Source: an uncultured Flavobacteriales bacterium
Lineage (GTDB): Bacteria; Bacteroidota; Bacteroidia; Flavobacteriales_G; Salibacteraceae
Direction: 5' to 3'
DNA length: 53,806 nt
NCBI GenBank assembly: GCA_913020435.1
Contig: CAJVZZ010000018.1
Location: 1 to 53,806, forward strand
This document shows positions 2,966 to 20,869 of the stretch, one piece after another; position 1 is the first letter of the stretch; each line of letters begins with the position of its first letter. The notes under the pieces are model-generated. The model was not told the DNA's origin and did not search any database. It saw only the letters and a list, made by a program, of their open reading frames with translations. The position numbers were made by a program, and so were the translations under genes.

Positions 2966-5900
2966 ATGAACACATTGCACCGGTTTTTTCTTTGCGTTTC
3001 TATGCTCCTTGCCGGCATTACGCTGAATGCGCACAATGACGGGTTTGCCGAGTTTGAATTCATAAAAAACCAAGGCCAATGGCACAATAACATTGCTTAC
3101 AAAGTTCAGCTTCCCGAAGGCAATATTTACCTAGAACAAGGCCGACTTAAATTTCACTTAGCTGATATGAGTGTTATTTCTCAAATTCACGTAGGTACTT
3201 TTAAAGGCAACACAAAGAATGCAAAAATCAAAAACCACGTTTACAACGCCAACTTTATTGGCTGCAATACCAATTGCGAAATCGTACAAGAAGATATCCA
3301 AGATAATTACTACAATTACTACTTAGGGAATGACAAAACGAAGTGGTCAAGAGAGACTCCAGTTAGTCATGCTGTGCGATATAAGGAACTTTACAATGGA
3401 GTCGATCTGCTGATTTTTTCCAAAGACGGTGGAATTAAATACGAGTTTCATTGTAAGAATTATACTGCATCTCAACAAATTAAAATTGAATACGAAGGCC
3501 ATGATAATTTAAAATTAAAAGATGGCAGTTTTACAGTATTCACCAGTTTGGGAGATGTGAGTGAAAATGCTCCAGTTGTTTTTCATCCGTCTGAATCAAA
3601 TCAAGATACGCTTGTCGCTAACTATTCACTTTCAAAAAATATACTGTCCTATGATTTGAAAGTAAAAGAACAAAACAAAAGTCGCCCAATTGTAATTGAT
3701 CCAGACCTTATTTTTTCTACCTATTCTGGTAGCACCACTACCAATTTTGGCGCAACGGCAACCTATGATTCAGAAGGATTCTTATATTCTGGAAGTATCA
3801 TTTTTGGTACTGGATACCCGACTACAATTGGAGCATTTGACAGAACATTTAATGGAGGTTCTGGTGTTTTGGGATTACCGGGCTGCGATATAGCTATAAC
3901 GAAATACGATACTAATGGAAGGACTGCACTTTTCTCTACTTATCTAGGCGGATCAGGTGATGAAATGCCACATTCTATTGTAGTTAATAGTCGCGACCAA
4001 TTGTACGTTTACGGAACTACCGGCTCACAAAACTTCCCAACAACAGCAAGTGCTTATCAAGATACACTAACACAGCCAAATGCTGCAAATGTTCGAACTT
4101 TGGAAGTTGCAGTTAGCTACACTTTTGGTTCTGACATGTTCGTGACCGCATTTCAATCTGACGGGAAAAAGCTATTGGCAAGCACCTATATTGGAGGAAG
4201 TGAAAATGATGGTTTAAACAACCCCAGCCCATTTGGATTTGGAAACCCTAGAGTATTAAATTACAACTATGCAGATGTTGCTCGAGGTGAAATAGATATT
4301 GATAAAGATGATAATGTTTATGTGGTGACCTCTACCCGATCTACAGATTTTCCAATAAAAGGAAACCCTGTTTATCCAATATATCGCGGCGGAACTCAAG
4401 ATGGAATTATTGTAAAATTCAAACCATTATTAGACACGCTAATTTGGAGTAGTTATTTTGGAGGTGCATTTTCTGATGCTATCTACTCTTTGGCATTTCG
4501 AAAGAATGGAAACATTACCATTGCTGGCGGAACAACATCGTCTGTTCTATTTCCATCAGGCGCCCTTCCAGGATATACTGGATTTCAAGGAGGAAGAGCT
4601 GATGGATTTGTAGCAGAAATAAGTAACGATGGACAAACAGTTGTTGCTTCAACCTATTTTGGAACCAGTGAATACGATCAAATCTATTTTGTAGAGCGAG
4701 ATCGCTTTGAGAATGTGTATGTGTTTGGCCAAACTGAAGACGCATCAAGCAAACTCGTCCAAAATGCTCAATATTCCGTTCCAACTGCAGGACAATTCGT
4801 AACCAAATTCACTCCATCCATCGATTCTATAATCTGGTCAACCAAATTTGGCACACCAGTTACTACTGGAAACGCAACACCGAATATCTCTCCTACTGCC
4901 TTTTTAGTTGATTTATGCAATTCAGTGTATTTATCAGGCTGGGGAGGAACTACAAATTCTGGAAAAGGCAACAATTCAACCTTAGTAACTGGCATGGACA
5001 CTACCAGTGATGCTTTTCAAGCTACTACGACAGGCAGCGACTTGTATTTAATGGTTTTGGCAGATGATGCGAGTAGAAAAATTTACGGATCCTTTTTTGG
5101 CGGTGCATTTGCCGCAGAGCATGTCGATGGGGGGACTTCACGATTTGATCGCAAAGGAAAAATTTATCAGGCAGTTTGCGCGGGTTGCCCAACCGCTGCT
5201 AGACCATCTGGCTCAAGTGATTTTCCAACCAAACCGAATCCCGGAGCAGTTTCAAATCAAAACAGAGCCAATGGAGGTTGCAACAACGCAATTTTTAAAA
5301 TGGATTTCTTATTACCTGCGGTTGTTGCTGAATTCCAGTTGCCAAGAACTATTTGCACCAACGACAGTATTCTTTTGCGGAATCTATCGCTAGAACAAAA
5401 GGCAACTAACTACAAATGGTATTTTGGGAATGGCGATTCTTCAGAATTAAAAAACCCAAAGGTCAATTACGACTCTACAGGAACCTTTGAAATATTATTA
5501 GTGGTTTACGATTCTGCATCCTGTAACCTCAACGATAGTATAACTAAGAAAGTAACCCTAATAAATCCAACTGCATTGACATTGCCTAACGATAGTATTT
5601 GCATTGGAGATACGGTGCTGTTAGGGAAATCAAATCCAAGTGAATATGATTACAGCTGGTCGCCGGGAAGTATGTTGGATGATTCAACCAAAAGAAACCC
5701 TTTAACGTCACCTAGTGCCCCTACCCAATTTACGTTGCTTATCGATAACGGTATTTGCATAGACTCCAATTTTCAATTCATTCAAGTAGATTCTTTCATT
5801 AGAGCCGATTTTACGATTCCTGATTCGATTTGCACTCCTGATACTATTACACTTGCTAACCGCAGCAATATCCTTATTGAAACTATTGTACGTTGGGATT

Positions 5901-7306
5901 TAGCCGGAGGCACAGCGGATACAGTGCTTTCTCCAAATTATACAATAACAAAACCAGGAACTTACAAGTTTCTGTTGGTGCTAAGTGACTCTAATTCATG
6001 CAATGAATCAGATTCCATTCAGAAAACAATTCAAGCCAACTCCGATACTACTTTTAAATTGAAGGATATTTTAATTTGCAATGAGGATGCATTGCCGATC
6101 GGACTTCCTAACGATACGAACTACGTGTACAATTGGAATACCTCTTTTGGAATAAGTGATTCTACAACTTCAAATCCTTTTGGTAGCACTAAAGTAGATA
6201 CTACCTTCAAATTATTCATAAACAAAGGCGTTTGTGTTGATACAGCTTTGCAGCTGCTTAAAGCTGACAGTATTCGAATTTCAACACATGCCGACACAAT
6301 AATCTGCTCCAATGTTCCTTCTTTAGTTCTTGATGGAAAACATTTTGGAACCGGAACGCTGTATCAATGGAGTTCAAATAACAAATTCGATGATCAACTA
6401 AATATTTCAATCCTAGATAGTTTGGCTCGAGTTTTCTACGATACGTTATTTGAAAACACCTACTATATGCGTTCTGTTTCTTCGAGAGGTTGCAACGCTT
6501 TCGACTCTACAAAAATATTTTTAAATGATTTTGGTATTCGCGTTTCTGACTCCACCAATTTGTGCCTAAACGACTCGGCTACCCTTTCTATAGTTAGCCT
6601 AATTGCCAACGATACTTTAAACGTACTTTGGACACCTTTTAAAGATATTTATGGTCCAAATGACACTACTACAATCATAGTACACCCAAGCGAAAGCCGG
6701 ACCTATTTTGTAGATGTTGAGACAGCATTTAACTGTCGCGCTTCTAGAGAAGTATTTGTTTTTGTATCGGATATGGACTCTTCTACTGCCCTACTTACTG
6801 GAACTAGAGACACAATAGTAAAGGTGTTGGATTCGGAACTGAATGTTGAACCAAAAGGCTATGCTTACTTGTGGTCTCCGACTATTGGTTTGAGCGATCC
6901 AAACTCAGATAATCCAATTGCTAAACCTGCAGAAACCACAACTTATACGGTTACGGTTTTCGATCCCCAGTTACCAAAATGCTCTGTCGAACGAAAAATT
7001 AAAGTTCACGTTGAAGAATTATTCTGCGAACCTCCCTACATCTTTTTGCCGAATACCTTCACTCCAAATGGGGATGGAAAAAATGATGAACTAGAACTTT
7101 TCGGAAAGTATATTGGAGAAATGAACCTTCAAGTATTCAACCGCTGGGGCGAGTTGGTTTTTGAAGCAAATGATCAATCGGAAACTTGGGATGGAACCTA
7201 CAAAGGAAACGAAAGTTGGCCTGAAGTATTTGTTTACCAATTATACGTTAAGTGTATTGACGGTCAGGAATATAAAATTAAAGGAGACATTACTGTAGTT
7301 AAATAA
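2966..7306 (+). CDS. Giant secreted PKD/propeller protein with T9SS type B sorting domain
   Basis: 1446 residues from ATG 2966; an in-frame GTG at 2957 is a weaker alternative. A signal peptide ends near LNAHNDG. Residues about 25-250 (FIKNQGQWHNNIAYKV onward) match the N-terminal domain seen before SBBP-type propellers in Bacteroidota. Residues about 250-780 have repeated blades (FSTYLGGSGDE, ASTYIGGSENDG, WSSYFGGAFSDA). A PKD domain follows at about 795-880, then Cys-containing Ig-like repeats. The last 90 residues (FLPNTFTPNGDGKNDE, LQVFNRWGELVF, WDGTYKGNE) are a gliding-motility-associated (CHU_C, type B) sorting domain. Type B cargo usually depends on a PorP/SprF partner, which is encoded 2 bp downstream. 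It is probably a surface adhesin or surface-layer protein; the substrate is unknown. Confidence 0.9.
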   Translation: MNTLHRFFLCVSMLLAGITLNAHNDGFAEFEFIKNQGQWHNNIAYKVQLPEGNIYLEQGRLKFHLADMSVISQIHVGTFKGNTKNAKIKNHVYNANFIGCNTNCEIVQEDIQDNYYNYYLGNDKTKWSRETPVSHAVRYKELYNGVDLLIFSKDGGIKYEFHCKNYTASQQIKIEYEGHDNLKLKDGSFTVFTSLGDVSENAPVVFHPSESNQDTLVANYSLSKNILSYDLKVKEQNKSRPIVIDPDLIFSTYSGSTTTNFGATATYDSEGFLYSGSIIFGTGYPTTIGAFDRTFNGGSGVLGLPGCDIAITKYDTNGRTALFSTYLGGSGDEMPHSIVVNSRDQLYVYGTTGSQNFPTTASAYQDTLTQPNAANVRTLEVAVSYTFGSDMFVTAFQSDGKKLLASTYIGGSENDGLNNPSPFGFGNPRVLNYNYADVARGEIDIDKDDNVYVVTSTRSTDFPIKGNPVYPIYRGGTQDGIIVKFKPLLDTLIWSSYFGGAFSDAIYSLAFRKNGNITIAGGTTSSVLFPSGALPGYTGFQGGRADGFVAEISNDGQTVVASTYFGTSEYDQIYFVERDRFENVYVFGQTEDASSKLVQNAQYSVPTAGQFVTKFTPSIDSIIWSTKFGTPVTTGNATPNISPTAFLVDLCNSVYLSGWGGTTNSGKGNNSTLVTGMDTTSDAFQATTTGSDLYLMVLADDASRKIYGSFFGGAFAAEHVDGGTSRFDRKGKIYQAVCAGCPTAARPSGSSDFPTKPNPGAVSNQNRANGGCNNAIFKMDFLLPAVVAEFQLPRTICTNDSILLRNLSLEQKATNYKWYFGNGDSSELKNPKVNYDSTGTFEILLVVYDSASCNLNDSITKKVTLINPTALTLPNDSICIGDTVLLGKSNPSEYDYSWSPGSMLDDSTKRNPLTSPSAPTQFTLLIDNGICIDSNFQFIQVDSFIRADFTIPDSICTPDTITLANRSNILIETIVRWDLAGGTADTVLSPNYTITKPGTYKFLLVLSDSNSCNESDSIQKTIQANSDTTFKLKDILICNEDALPIGLPNDTNYVYNWNTSFGISDSTTSNPFGSTKVDTTFKLFINKGVCVDTALQLLKADSIRISTHADTIICSNVPSLVLDGKHFGTGTLYQWSSNNKFDDQLNISILDSLARVFYDTLFENTYYMRSVSSRGCNAFDSTKIFLNDFGIRVSDSTNLCLNDSATLSIVSLIANDTLNVLWTPFKDIYGPNDTTTIIVHPSESRTYFVDVETAFNCRASREVFVFVSDMDSSTALLTGTRDTIVKVLDSELNVEPKGYAYLWSPTIGLSDPNSDNPIAKPAETTTYTVTVFDPQLPKCSVERKIKVHVEELFCEPPYIFLPNTFTPNGDGKNDELELFGKYIGEMNLQVFNRWGELVFEANDQSETWDGTYKGNESWPEVFVYQLYVKCIDGQEYKIKGDITVVK

Positions 7307-17412: not shown

Positions 17413-17455
17413 CAAAAAAAATCCCTTACCAAATAAATTGATAAAGGATTTTTTA
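17413..17455 (-). terminator. Terminator of the five-gene A-B array
   Basis: Runs of A followed by ATCCCTTA (to 17428) pair with TAAAGGATTTTTT (17442-17454), with one mismatch in the stem and a strong T-tract on the minus strand. It lies 15 bp beyond the stop of the last array gene. No other terminator was found inside the array. Confidence 0.75.
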
Positions 17456-17469
17456 ATTGTAAAATTTAT

Positions 17470-17985
17470 CTACTCTGCTGCTGCACCTTCAGCATCACCA
17501 AATGCATCAGATACTTCATCCTCGTATCCAGTCATGAGAATTATGCAACCTTTAATAAAGGACGAACCGTCTTCGTCAATATATGCTGGGATTAAAAAAT
17601 TGACATATACCTCTGACAATCCTGACTCAGGATCTGGCTCAAAATTAAATTGCTTTTGTGAACTTTCGAACTCAGCTAATTGCTCTCTTTTCTTTTCAGT
17701 TTGAGATTTATCGTAAATTCTAATTTTGATGTCTTTGGGAACTAATTCAGTGTTAAATGTAAAACGATATCTCGCATCATAATATATTGGAATACTAATT
17801 TCCTTGATATGATTGAAACGTTTAAATACGATACGATTAGTAATCATATTCGTATATTTAAAAGGGACTAAAGCCTTTCTGCATTTTATGATCACATCTC
17901 CCTTTGGGCAATATGATGTCGGAGTTTGTTGAGCATGCAGATAACTCGAGGCAAGTAAAACTACAATTGATAGCAATATTCTCAT
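17470..17985 (-). CDS. Array protein A3: small secreted protein of unknown family
   Basis: 171 residues from ATG 17985. The signal peptide is MRILLSIVVLLASSYLHAQ. It is a clear paralogue of A2 (18903-19376) and A1 (20345-20869). Shared features in order are a cysteine soon after the signal (SYCPKGD), a second cysteine before a PF motif (KCRKALVPFKY), then HIKEISIPIYYDARYRFTFN, IKIRIYDKS, a central FNFEPD, VNFLIPAY and a C-terminal KGCIILMTGYED. The pattern of alternating hydrophobic residues suggests an all-beta, probably sandwich, domain. Only A3 has the Ala/Asp-rich tail (DAFGDAEGAAAE). It is the last gene of the array, 18 bp after B2. I cannot assign a function. Confidence 0.75.
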   Translation of the reverse strand: MRILLSIVVLLASSYLHAQQTPTSYCPKGDVIIKCRKALVPFKYTNMITNRIVFKRFNHIKEISIPIYYDARYRFTFNTELVPKDIKIRIYDKSQTEKKREQLAEFESSQKQFNFEPDPESGLSEVYVNFLIPAYIDEDGSSFIKGCIILMTGYEDEVSDAFGDAEGAAAE

Positions 17986-18003
17986 AATTTTTACTTTCTA
18001 AAA

Positions 18004-18873
18004 TTAAACTTTAGTAATTCGATTTCTCAATTCAATAATCATAATAGATAGTTCTTCTAAATGTTCTTTCGAAATTTTATAATCTTTAAAAGATGCAATC
18101 TTTTGTGAGTTTTTATTCTCTTCTAATCGTATGAAGAACTTATCAAGTTTATTCAAATCCTTAGTAAGTTGTTCGATATCTTCAGTTTGGTTATTGTTTG
18201 ACCGAAGGGCTTTAACCAAATTATCCAGAACAGTCATTTGCTCTACCAGTCTCCCTGAAATCATATGTTGATTATTCGAATTAGAAGCCTTAACTCCTAG
18301 GTACATCCCTTCTATCCAAGCTCCAGCAAAAATAATGTGAGTTACTTCTTGTAAATTGTTTTCATCCACAAACATGTCTGTTTGCATTTGAATATCAATC
18401 ATAACATTTAGAATAGAATCTTCATTTCCTAAGCTATTTTGAAACCTATTCAACAATTCTTCTGATTCAAACACAGCACCAAACCCAATTTTATCTGAAA
18501 GACTTTTTATTGTTTTCAAGTAAGCAGTTGCATCCTGACTTTGTCCATTAAGAATTATATAAGCTAAATCAGCAGAATAAACTCCAAAGTTCAAAATCTT
18601 CTGAGACTTGGTAATGTACTGTTCTTGATTGGAAGGAGAATTAGTGAGCCTTTCTATGTAGCTCAATCCTGATTTTTGGAAAATAGAACCTATTTGCAAT
18701 GCTGAAGGTAAATAAAATGCTTCAGGTTCTTTATCCTCTCCTTCCTCTGCCATTTCATTCAATAAATCATCTTGGGCTTGCTCCTCTTGAGAAACTTGTT
18801 GCGTTGAATCTTCACCACATGACGTCAATATCATTGTTGAAATAAACAAAGCTGTAATTATCTTCTTGTCCAT
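18004..18873 (-). CDS. Array protein B2: lipoprotein of unknown family
   Basis: 289 residues from ATG 18873. The lipobox is ILTSCGED (Cys about residue 19), followed by a very acidic linker (QEEQAQDDLLNEMAEEGEDK). The body is all-helical and aligns end to end with B1 (19401-20270, also 289 residues). Conserved blocks are LPSALQIGSIFQKSGLSYIE, LNFGVYSADLAYIILNGQSQ, a GNEDS turn, IFAGAWIEGMYLG and a final IIELRNRITK. Helical lipoproteins with this GAWIEG motif are, to my recollection, common but uncharacterised in Bacteroidota. It sits between A2 (29 bp) and A3 (18 bp) and is surely co-transcribed. Its likely place is the periplasmic face of a membrane; the role is unknown. Confidence 0.78.
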   Translation of the reverse strand: MDKKIITALFISTMILTSCGEDSTQQVSQEEQAQDDLLNEMAEEGEDKEPEAFYLPSALQIGSIFQKSGLSYIERLTNSPSNQEQYITKSQKILNFGVYSADLAYIILNGQSQDATAYLKTIKSLSDKIGFGAVFESEELLNRFQNSLGNEDSILNVMIDIQMQTDMFVDENNLQEVTHIIFAGAWIEGMYLGVKASNSNNQHMISGRLVEQMTVLDNLVKALRSNNNQTEDIEQLTKDLNKLDKFFIRLEENKNSQKIASFKDYKISKEHLEELSIMIIELRNRITKV

Positions 18874-18902
18874 TATTTTGGAAATTAGTTTAGTACTTGA
18901 TA

Positions 18903-19376
18903 TTAATTCTTAAATCCTGAGTAAAAAATCACACAACCCTTATCAATTACGCTTGCGTCACTATTATTTGAAGCAGGAATAATGTAATCAATATAGATTC
19001 TATTGTGCGCAACGTTTTTAGGTGGATCATATACGAAATGTCGCTCATTACTGGATCCATCATAGACTTTTCTTCGGCTTGAATTACTAGCAGGCTTATC
19101 GTAAATTTCAATTTTCACGTCTTGGTGAAGACCTTCTGTGTTAAACACAAATCGATAATTAGCATCATGAAAAAGAGGCACTTCTACTTCTTTAAACTGA
19201 CTTTCCGAATTAAAAGTAATTTTTGTGATTTTGAAAGCATAGTAATGAAATGGCTTTAAATCATGTTTACATTTTTTCTTTACTTCTTCATCCCATTTAC
19301 AAGAGTTCCTAACTGTTTGAGCCTGGATTGAAAGAGCAGCAAATAAAAGAGCCAGAACTAAAAATAAATTTCTCAT
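18903..19376 (-). CDS. Array protein A2: small secreted protein of unknown family
   Basis: 157 residues from ATG 19376. The signal peptide is MRNLFLVLALLFAALSIQAQ. Same plan as A1 and A3: NSCKWDE near the N-terminus, KKCKHDLKPFHYYAFKITKI, then QFKEVEVPLFHDANYRFVFN, VKIEIYDKP, a strand pair RHFVYDPPKN and RIYIDYIIPAS, and KGCVIFYSGFKN at the very end. It is the shortest of the three and lacks any tail. The three cysteines match A3, while A1 has only the first and last, so the first-last pair could form the conserved disulfide. It begins 24 bp after B1. Confidence 0.75.
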   Translation of the reverse strand: MRNLFLVLALLFAALSIQAQTVRNSCKWDEEVKKKCKHDLKPFHYYAFKITKITFNSESQFKEVEVPLFHDANYRFVFNTEGLHQDVKIEIYDKPASNSSRRKVYDGSSNERHFVYDPPKNVAHNRIYIDYIIPASNNSDASVIDKGCVIFYSGFKN

Positions 19377-19400
19377 TTTTTATAAATTTTAAAGTAATAA

Positions 19401-20270
19401 TTACGATTTGGTTATTTCGCTGCGCAAATCTCTTACCATTTCATAAAGTTTCTTCCAATCCGCATCTGCAAGTGCTGTTTCATCGTAAGAATATTTATCA
19501 GCCCCCTTTACACCCTTGATGCTTAAAAAGTAATCCAGAATCGCTTGATATTTCCCTTCAATTGCAATAGTTTCTTCATTTCTATTTGGCTGAAACTGCA
19601 AACCCTTAATAAGATTTTCTACAATACCCATTTGCTCCGCTAAACGAGCTTTAAGGTTATCATTACCACTATTGTTAGCAGCATCTAATCCTATAAACAT
19701 TCCTTCAATCCATGCTCCAGCAAAAATCACCATTGCTGTATGCTCTTCATTATTCTCAGCAATTAGCATATCTGTTTTTTCTTGAAACTCTAGCATTATA
19801 GTAAAAACTGAATCTTTATTCCCAATATTTGCCTCAAAACGCTCAAATAGAGGACCGGTATTAAAAATTCCAGACATTCCTGTTTCGTCAGCTAGTTGTC
19901 TAACAGCTTTTAAATATTGTATCGACATTTGAGACTGATCATTAAGAATACAATAAAATAAATCGCCGCTGTAAACACCAAAATTCAATAGTTTCTCGAA
20001 CTTAGAGTTGTAGTCAGAAACTTTATCTGGATTATTGGTAATTCCGTCTAAGTACGAAAGACCAGAATTCTTAAACATCGCACTAATCTGCAGCGCTGAT
20101 GGAATTACAAATTCAGGTTGATCAATTTTCCCTTCAATTACTTCAACTTCCTGAACTACCGCTTCCTCGTTATCTTCGACGGGATTGGCATCAGGAACAT
20201 TTGAATCTCCGCATGAAACTGCAAAAACACAAACTAATATAGCTAATACTGAACTGGCTTTTTTATTCAT
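19401..20270 (-). CDS. Array protein B1: lipoprotein of unknown family
   Basis: 289 residues from ATG 20270. The lipobox is FAVSCGDS (Cys about residue 20), followed by an acidic stretch to about residue 50. The helical body carries the same blocks as B2: IPSALQISAMFKNSGLSYLD, LNFGVYSGDLFYCILNDQSQ, GNKDS, IFAGAWIEGMFIG and RDLRSEITK. The middle (RLAEQMGIVENLIKGL) matches RLVEQMTVLDNLVKAL of B2. Equal length and co-linear blocks show that B1 and B2 arose by duplication together with their A partners. The 74-bp gap to A1 is the largest in the array and holds a short hairpin and a possible TATATTCG promoter box. Confidence 0.78.
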   Translation of the reverse strand: MNKKASSVLAILVCVFAVSCGDSNVPDANPVEDNEEAVVQEVEVIEGKIDQPEFVIPSALQISAMFKNSGLSYLDGITNNPDKVSDYNSKFEKLLNFGVYSGDLFYCILNDQSQMSIQYLKAVRQLADETGMSGIFNTGPLFERFEANIGNKDSVFTIMLEFQEKTDMLIAENNEEHTAMVIFAGAWIEGMFIGLDAANNSGNDNLKARLAEQMGIVENLIKGLQFQPNRNEETIAIEGKYQAILDYFLSIKGVKGADKYSYDETALADADWKKLYEMVRDLRSEITKS

Positions 20271-20320
20271 TTTTTATCCTTTAGGTCTTATCGTTGCGAA
20301 TATATATAAATTACTCTAGT

Positions 20321-20334
20321 GGGTTTTCTAACCC
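20321..20334 (-). promoter_or_regulatory. Short hairpin between A1 and B1
   Basis: GGGTT and AACCC form a 5-bp stem around a tetraloop in the 74-bp gap, 10 bp after the A1 stop. There is no T-tract. It could act as an RNA-processing or stability element separating A1 from the downstream genes; the evidence is weak. Confidence 0.3.
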
Positions 20335-20344
20335 TTTTCATTTT

Positions 20345-20869
20345 TTAAAAATCTACATCCTCAAATCCTGCTCCAATTAGTATACATCCTCTATTTCTTA
20401 TGTAATTGTTAAACTCTTTGTCACCAGGTATTTTAACAGATAAATATATTCTTGATCCTTCAAAATCTGAAGGGGTTTCATAGGTAAACGTTTTGGAGGT
20501 AGACTGAGATAATACTTTAGAACCCGAAGCCTTGTGAGGTTTATCAGTAATCTTCATTTCTACTCCAGTTGGCATGCCTTCCGCATTAATCACAAACTTA
20601 TACTGTGTTGTGTGATAAATAGGAATTGCAATTTCCTTAACTTGGGTGTACGATTTGTAGTGAATTTTCGCAGGAGTAATCTTTTCCAGTCTAAATGGAG
20701 CAATTTCCACTTTAATTTTCTCTGCAGTTACTTTAAATGTACAACTCTCTTTGATAATAATTTCTTCAGGATCGGAATTACCCGACCTTCCTTTTTTCTT
20801 TTGACCAAAAGAAACACTCGAAAGAAACACTGTAATCAAAACTGCTAGTCCTATACCTTTTGTACTCAT
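20345..20869 (-). CDS. Array protein A1: small secreted protein of unknown family
   Basis: 174 residues from ATG 20869. The signal peptide ends at SVSFGQ and is followed by a basic patch (KKKGRSGNSD). It shares with A2 and A3 the order ESCTFKV, IAPFRLEKI, QVKEIAIPIYHTTQYKFVIN, VEMKITDKP, a FTYETPSD-like hinge, RIYLSVKIPGD and NRGCILIGAGFED. It lacks the second cysteine of its paralogues. It is the first gene of the array and lies 211 bp from the divergently transcribed antiporter gene. No standard domain is recognised. As with the other A proteins, a secreted beta-sandwich partner of the neighbouring lipoprotein is a reasonable but unproven guess. Confidence 0.75.
   Translation of the reverse strand: MSTKGIGLAVLITVFLSSVSFGQKKKGRSGNSDPEEIIIKESCTFKVTAEKIKVEIAPFRLEKITPAKIHYKSYTQVKEIAIPIYHTTQYKFVINAEGMPTGVEMKITDKPHKASGSKVLSQSTSKTFTYETPSDFEGSRIYLSVKIPGDKEFNNYIRNRGCILIGAGFEDVDF

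Follow-up and report, generated by a model that had tools for sequence, protein, structure and literature searches.

ATP-binding cassette (ABC) transporters of the ABCG type, such as the human half-transporters ABCG1, ABCG2, ABCG5 and ABCG8 and the pigment precursor permease family (TIGR00955), consist of a single chain in which the ATPase precedes the ABC2_membrane domain. In the mycobacterial FHA-ABC exporter Rv1747, N-terminal regulatory domains are fused to the ATPase. Transport across the envelope of Bacteroidota is otherwise known mainly from the type IX secretion system (T9SS) and SusCD. Here we describe an array of five genes in a stretch of 53,806 nucleotides from an uncultured marine Flavobacteriales bacterium (contig CAJVZZ010000018.1, called 'the window' below). 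The genes encode, in the order A1-B1-A2-B2-A3, members of two paralogous families, small secreted proteins (A) and larger lipoproteins (B). In our judgement B and A probably, though far from certainly, form the extracytoplasmic module of an undescribed transporter with TerB, ATPase and ABC2_membrane domains (TerB-ABC). A search of the open literature found no paper on the B–A pair or on a TerB-ABC system; such papers may exist outside that literature.

A conserved gene pair and its predicted structure

We scanned 84,980 species genomes, which gave 79 named B loci. An A gene adjoined B on the same strand in 78 of them, the gene orders being BA (45 loci), BAA (14), BAAA (8), ABABA (6), AB (3), BABABA (1) and BAB (1). 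When all fetched loci were taken together, A lay directly downstream of B for 136 of 157 distinct B genes (median gap 11 bp) and only upstream for 3, while 18 had no neighbouring A. The conserved unit is B followed by A. Among 60 relatives of the window genome, B was present in 53, often in five or six copies. A was found in 31 of the 60 by single-sequence search, and a hidden Markov model (HMM) recovers more, for example beside B in genome G025, where the single query had failed. The window genome itself has a second B–A pair on another contig than the array, and pairs also occur in cultured strains, among them Crocinitomix catalasitica and Acidiluteibacter ferrifornacis.

Several variations on the pair were seen. 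In L107, L109, L111-L114, L119, L125, L130, L133 and L153, a single B precedes two or three A genes that are paralogues, so in these lineages A multiplies without B. The window genome and its near relatives (L179, L185, L188, L217) carry, just upstream of the threonyl-tRNA synthetase gene, a divergent pair of genes for B-type lipoproteins that has no A (L061, G000:C33, positions 5396-7234); the same synthetase gene lies downstream of the B–A pair in 37 of the 79 named loci.

Neither A nor B matched a Pfam, NCBIfam or PDB family, whether single sequences were searched, members were taken one by one or profiles were compared with PDB. When 28 A members were checked singly, one matched CUB_2 at 2e-4 and one PPC at 3.4e-4, and no family was common to two members. 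B is, judging from its lipobox Cys after a signal-peptide-like stretch, a bacterial lipoprotein. This residue (Cys20 in B1) is invariant in 24 aligned B proteins, and a Cys falls within the expected stretch in 160 of 162, a count outside which the remote homologues of genomes G332 and G340 stand. Further conserved positions of B1 are P57 (100%), S58 (96%) and the polar residues D103, N110, E189, E212 and Q213; no internal duplication was detectable in B. In some sister genera, the A protein has an acidic, Trp-rich linker of the EESWEESSWGESDESS type after its signal peptide (L017:786-1424, L011:825-1478, L027:2255-2992).

We compared the predicted folds of the two proteins with known structures. 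For A, alignment to p24 GOLD domains gives Z 8.3-9.0 and a root mean square deviation of 2.3-2.6 over 92-97 residues, with 8-13% identity, so that the model describes it as a jelly roll (a beta-sandwich) like those of GOLD (p24/TMED, ACBD3), CUB and PPC domains. Unlike these, A has no sequence family assignment, has a conserved N-terminal Cys and a GC(I/V) near its end, and has a separate lipoprotein partner. B1 alone was predicted as all helical and as a single domain, with a predicted local distance difference test (pLDDT) score of 92.3 and a predicted template modelling (pTM) score of 0.91. When B alone was searched by fold, no structure stood out: the best Z, 6.1, is lower than the noise level stated for helical bundles, and we therefore give it no fold name.

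As B1 and A2 are in frame, they were folded with AlphaFold2 as one chain, in which stop codons were read as Gly and the signal peptide of A2 lies within the linker; the natural genes are separated by these stop codons, and the fused chain is a modelling device. The input alignment had 133 rows, of which 26 were paired B–A chains. The model reached a mean pLDDT of 86.5 and a pTM of 0.83. By our own rough estimate, a chain of this kind would score 0.78 if docked and 0.54-0.58 if undocked; the observed value is near the former and far from the latter, and the model thus asserts a defined B–A interface. Because residues 53-54 of B are called as a strand in the fused model (DSSP), because the sole other bridge residues of B recur at equivalent positions of the B-alone model, and because several CUB-type matches extend from residue 50 to residue 455 of the fused model, the strand FVIPS of B appears to add to the sheet of A.

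The first-pass annotation of this DNA, made from its letters alone, had suggested that A and B work together and that a secreted all-beta protein bound to a helical lipoprotein could be an undescribed envelope module, and had named the occurrence of A beside B in other genomes as a check. The conservation of the neighbours, the B1–A2 complex predicted with high confidence and the missing family matches support this interpretation. The transporter, which was no part of that proposal, gives the module a likely function.

Linkage of B to a TerB-ABC transporter

Clustering of the neighbours of more distant B–A loci revealed a recurrent co-directional gene for a protein of about 1000 amino acids with the Pfam domains TerB, ABC_tran and ABC2_membrane. 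PF00005 (residues 256-407) and PF01061 (residues 557-774) both score above their gathering cut-offs, and the order is the same in L221, L226 and L229. TerB (PF05099) reaches 36.9 bits in L078 and 30.6 bits in L221 against a gathering cut-off of 24.4, which the copy on contig C1 of the window genome misses with 18.6 bits; that genome has a second TerB-ABC gene on C17. The ATPase lies N-terminal to ABC2_membrane in one chain, as in ABCG-type half-transporters, and the protein matches TIGR00955 at E 3e-67 and ABCG2 at E 4e-35 (residues 267-743). However, it scores 227.5 bits, below the TIGR00955 cut-off of 736. It also differs from ABCG-type proteins by the N-terminal TerB, by a long loop that places the last transmembrane helix about 235 residues after the preceding hydrophobic segment (from hydropathy), and by its gene-linked lipoprotein and jelly-roll partners. 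Compared by description rather than by sequence, it resembles the exporter Rv1747 in the fusion of an N-terminal domain to the ATPase, but has TerB where FHA would be and has extracytoplasmic partners. An FHA domain between TerB and the ATPase had been suspected from the sequence; no FHA match was found in that segment.

We found B followed by the transporter gene on the same strand in at least 27 genomes of 15 families in a sample of the class; these were picked by eye from the tables and give a minimum, not a rate. The median space between the two genes was 542 bp, enough for one A gene, and an A gene was indeed read in this slot in L171, L181, L183, L184, L187, L194-L196, L206, L209 and L220-L222. 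The order ABC-B-A occurs in L167-L169, L198 and L211, and B-ABC in L078 and L172-L174. Within the family of the window genome, eight genomes have the transporter gene at a distance of about 0.2-2.1 kb from B–A. In another class of the phylum (genomes G332 and G340), divergent B genes have a transporter homologue with 35-39% identity near them, at distances of 104 bp, 1.1 kb and 4.9 kb; the FVPSA motif is retained in two of these B genes. A separate case is G408: the contig that carries its TerB-ABC gene (859-residue open reading frame; L243, G408:C4 6755-9334) has, at a distance of about 2.4 kb, a B match of only 45 residues, and the pair may have decayed or become fragmented.

The distributions of B and the transporter were then compared across genomes; A enters this test through its linkage to B. 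In the class sample of 345 genomes, 174 had both, 154 had neither, 11 had B only and 6 had the transporter only (Fisher 1.7e-75), which amounts to agreement in 328. Nine of the 11 B-only genomes are less than 90% complete, and three of the 11 have partial transporter matches at a looser threshold. In a phylum sample of 296 genomes, B was found in 5, and these same 5 have the transporter at full length; two further genomes, G332 and G340, match the transporter over the ATPase and membrane part. G015, G374 and G059 lack both genes, which are present together in relatives from their genus or family. The antiporter gene that adjoins the array, used as a control, showed no positive association with B (11/39).

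These results bear on a different reading, which we regard as possible but clearly less probable than the transporter module: that B–A is a self-contained envelope complex, for instance a glycan- or surface-binding one, in which the jelly roll of A would bind the ligand and B would hold A by its lipid, and which merely shares its range, and sometimes an operon, with TerB-ABC. Proteins or glycans are frequent ligands of such jelly rolls, at many of the 79 named loci the threonyl-tRNA synthetase gene follows immediately and there is no transporter in the vicinity, and in the window genome the transporter genes (C1 and C17) are unlinked to the array (C18). The several distinct arrangements that tie B to the transporter, including those in another class, and the concordant presence and absence of the two genes argue against it.

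The lack of linkage in the window genome also counts against the transporter module, as do several other points. The B–A subfamily found next to transporters is a distant relative of that in the window, and 18 of the 157 B genes have no A alongside. The docking comes from a fused chain, from one pair (B1–A2), with a linker that includes the signal peptide of A, and is judged by a rough pTM yardstick. The antiporter used as control is much rarer than B. Finally, the Fisher value is inflated by shared ancestry, as the statistic ignores kinship, and the varied gene arrangements and parallel losses are the stronger evidence.

An unlikely alternative is that B belongs, as a remote member, with the metal-binding proteins of the imelysin/EfeO type and that B–A takes part in metal (iron) handling, as EfeO does with its cupredoxin and imelysin domains. 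Both systems combine an extracytoplasmic all-helical protein with a beta-sandwich; Foldseek ranks EfeO 7wgu first for B alone, though without significance (E 1.0), the imelysin-like protein 3pf0 matches at Z 5.1, and the conserved polar residues of B could line a site. However, Z 5.1 is within the noise for helical bundles, B has no Pfam or PDB sequence match, B–A is encoded by two genes rather than one, and no iron genes were recognised among the recurrent neighbours. Imelysins have the motif GxHxxE, with the variant GxxxxE in one subfamily (PMC3143127). GxHxxE, counted without this variant, is present in only 2 of 162 B proteins, and the assignment of B to imelysin (M75) was rejected because the motif is nearly absent.

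The array and its history

The five genes are all on the minus strand, as confirmed by checking the open reading frames (Table 1), and the homology within each family is far beyond chance: E values are 1e-24 for A1/A2, 6e-34 for A2/A3, 8e-21 for A1/A3 and 5e-69 for B1/B2. The alternating array of paralogues was thus correctly recognised in the first pass, and so were its short gaps (74, 24, 29 and 18 bp from A1-B1 to B2-A3) and its one likely terminator, a 17-bp hairpin with a U-run 3' of A3. The motif blocks listed for the two families were also right, except that the final block of A is GC(I/V)(I/L) rather than GC(I/V)I, as A1 ends in GCIL. The longest gap, between A1 and B1 (20271-20344), contains a short GGGTT...AACCC inverted repeat and is possibly a regulatory spacer. 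A promoter scan gave no more sites than were found in shuffled sequences.

Table 1. Positions in the window of the array genes and associated features
Feature	Position	Strand	Description	Basis
A1	20345..20869	-	secreted protein, predicted jelly roll, 174 residues, signal peptide	open reading frame; A family HMM; clusters with A1 of the L090 BABABA array
B1	19401..20270	-	predicted helical lipoprotein, 289 residues, lipobox Cys20, acidic tether	open reading frame; AlphaFold2 model; clusters with second B of L090
B1 residues 53-58 (FVIPSA)	20097..20114	-	conserved strand, putative addition to the A beta-sandwich	DSSP, CUB-type matches, conservation
A2	18903..19376	-	secreted protein, predicted jelly roll, 157 residues; 24 bp downstream of B1, in frame	open reading frame; fused B1-A2 model; GOLD-type matches
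B2	18004..18873	-	predicted helical lipoprotein, 289 residues, lipobox Cys19	open reading frame; 37% identity to B1; clusters with third B of L090
B2 residues 52-57 (FYLPSA)	18703..18720	-	counterpart of the B1 strand motif	alignment with B1
A3	17470..17985	-	secreted protein, predicted jelly roll, 171 residues, acidic C-terminal tail	open reading frame; clusters with A3 of L090
Hairpin and U-run	17416..17454	-	likely transcription terminator of the array	free energy -17.9 kcal/mol, z -5.4

We analysed the relationships of the array genes with those of the BABABA array L090. In a quick tree, A1, A2 and A3 of the ABABA arrays cluster with A1, A2 and A3 of L090, and in a tree of 49 selected B rows, B1 and B2 cluster with its second and third B; some branches are modestly supported and the L090 rows are long. 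This grouping is most simply explained by an ancestral (BA)3 array from which the first B was lost in the window lineage, and A1 appears to have lost its own upstream B. The first pass had taken the alternation for duplication of a two-gene unit; the pairing of A and B stands, but the unit is B–A rather than A–B, and on the (BA)3 ancestry the alternation is a remnant. It can be conjectured that the tripled unit supplies alternative A subunits.

Paralogue arrays are typical of toxin and immunity pairs and Foldseek matches of A include toxin receptor-binding domains, but it is very improbable that the secreted jelly roll A acts like a toxin against which the lipoprotein B gives immunity, with conflict as the source of their diversity. 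Those matches stem from a widespread fold (best E 1.5e-3), in many genomes B–A adjoins housekeeping genes, and B is found together with a transporter. Decisive for our rejection, the array genes are inherited vertically in orthologous positions and B was not found in the 72,556 plasmid records searched.

A proposed envelope transport system

If B–A is the extracytoplasmic module of the TerB-ABC transporter, the two proteins would form a heteromeric complex outside the cytoplasm. B would be anchored by its N-terminal lipid, with about 35 residues of acidic tether in between, the conserved F-(V/I)-(I/L)-P-S strand of B is predicted to add to the jelly roll of A, and the helical body of B is predicted to pack against A. 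The complex would be a dedicated periplasmic or surface partner of the half-transporter, which, being of the ABCG/ABC2 type, is probably an exporter. B–A probably docks at the large loop that precedes the last membrane helix of the transporter, and would receive, gate or pass on cargo, perhaps a lipid or another amphiphile. In the window lineage, the pair would have been tripled to (BA)3 and one B then lost, leaving three A variants on two anchors.

A wider proposal, to which we give slightly less than an even chance, is an undescribed three-part envelope transport system of Bacteroidota, in which the long loop of the TerB-ABC exporter docks on a helical protein with a lipid anchor, a jelly-roll subunit is attached to this protein through strand addition, and the subunits, multiplied in Crocinitomicaceae, would tune specificity.

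Two families that are nameless in Pfam and NCBIfam form a conserved gene pair, and in many Bacteroidota one of them, B, is linked to a particular transporter. As B–A pairs are present in cultured strains, the hypothesis can be tested at the bench. If true, it would describe a new way for an inner-membrane ABC transporter to work with lipoprotein partners, and hundreds of 'hypothetical' genes would become a testable system.

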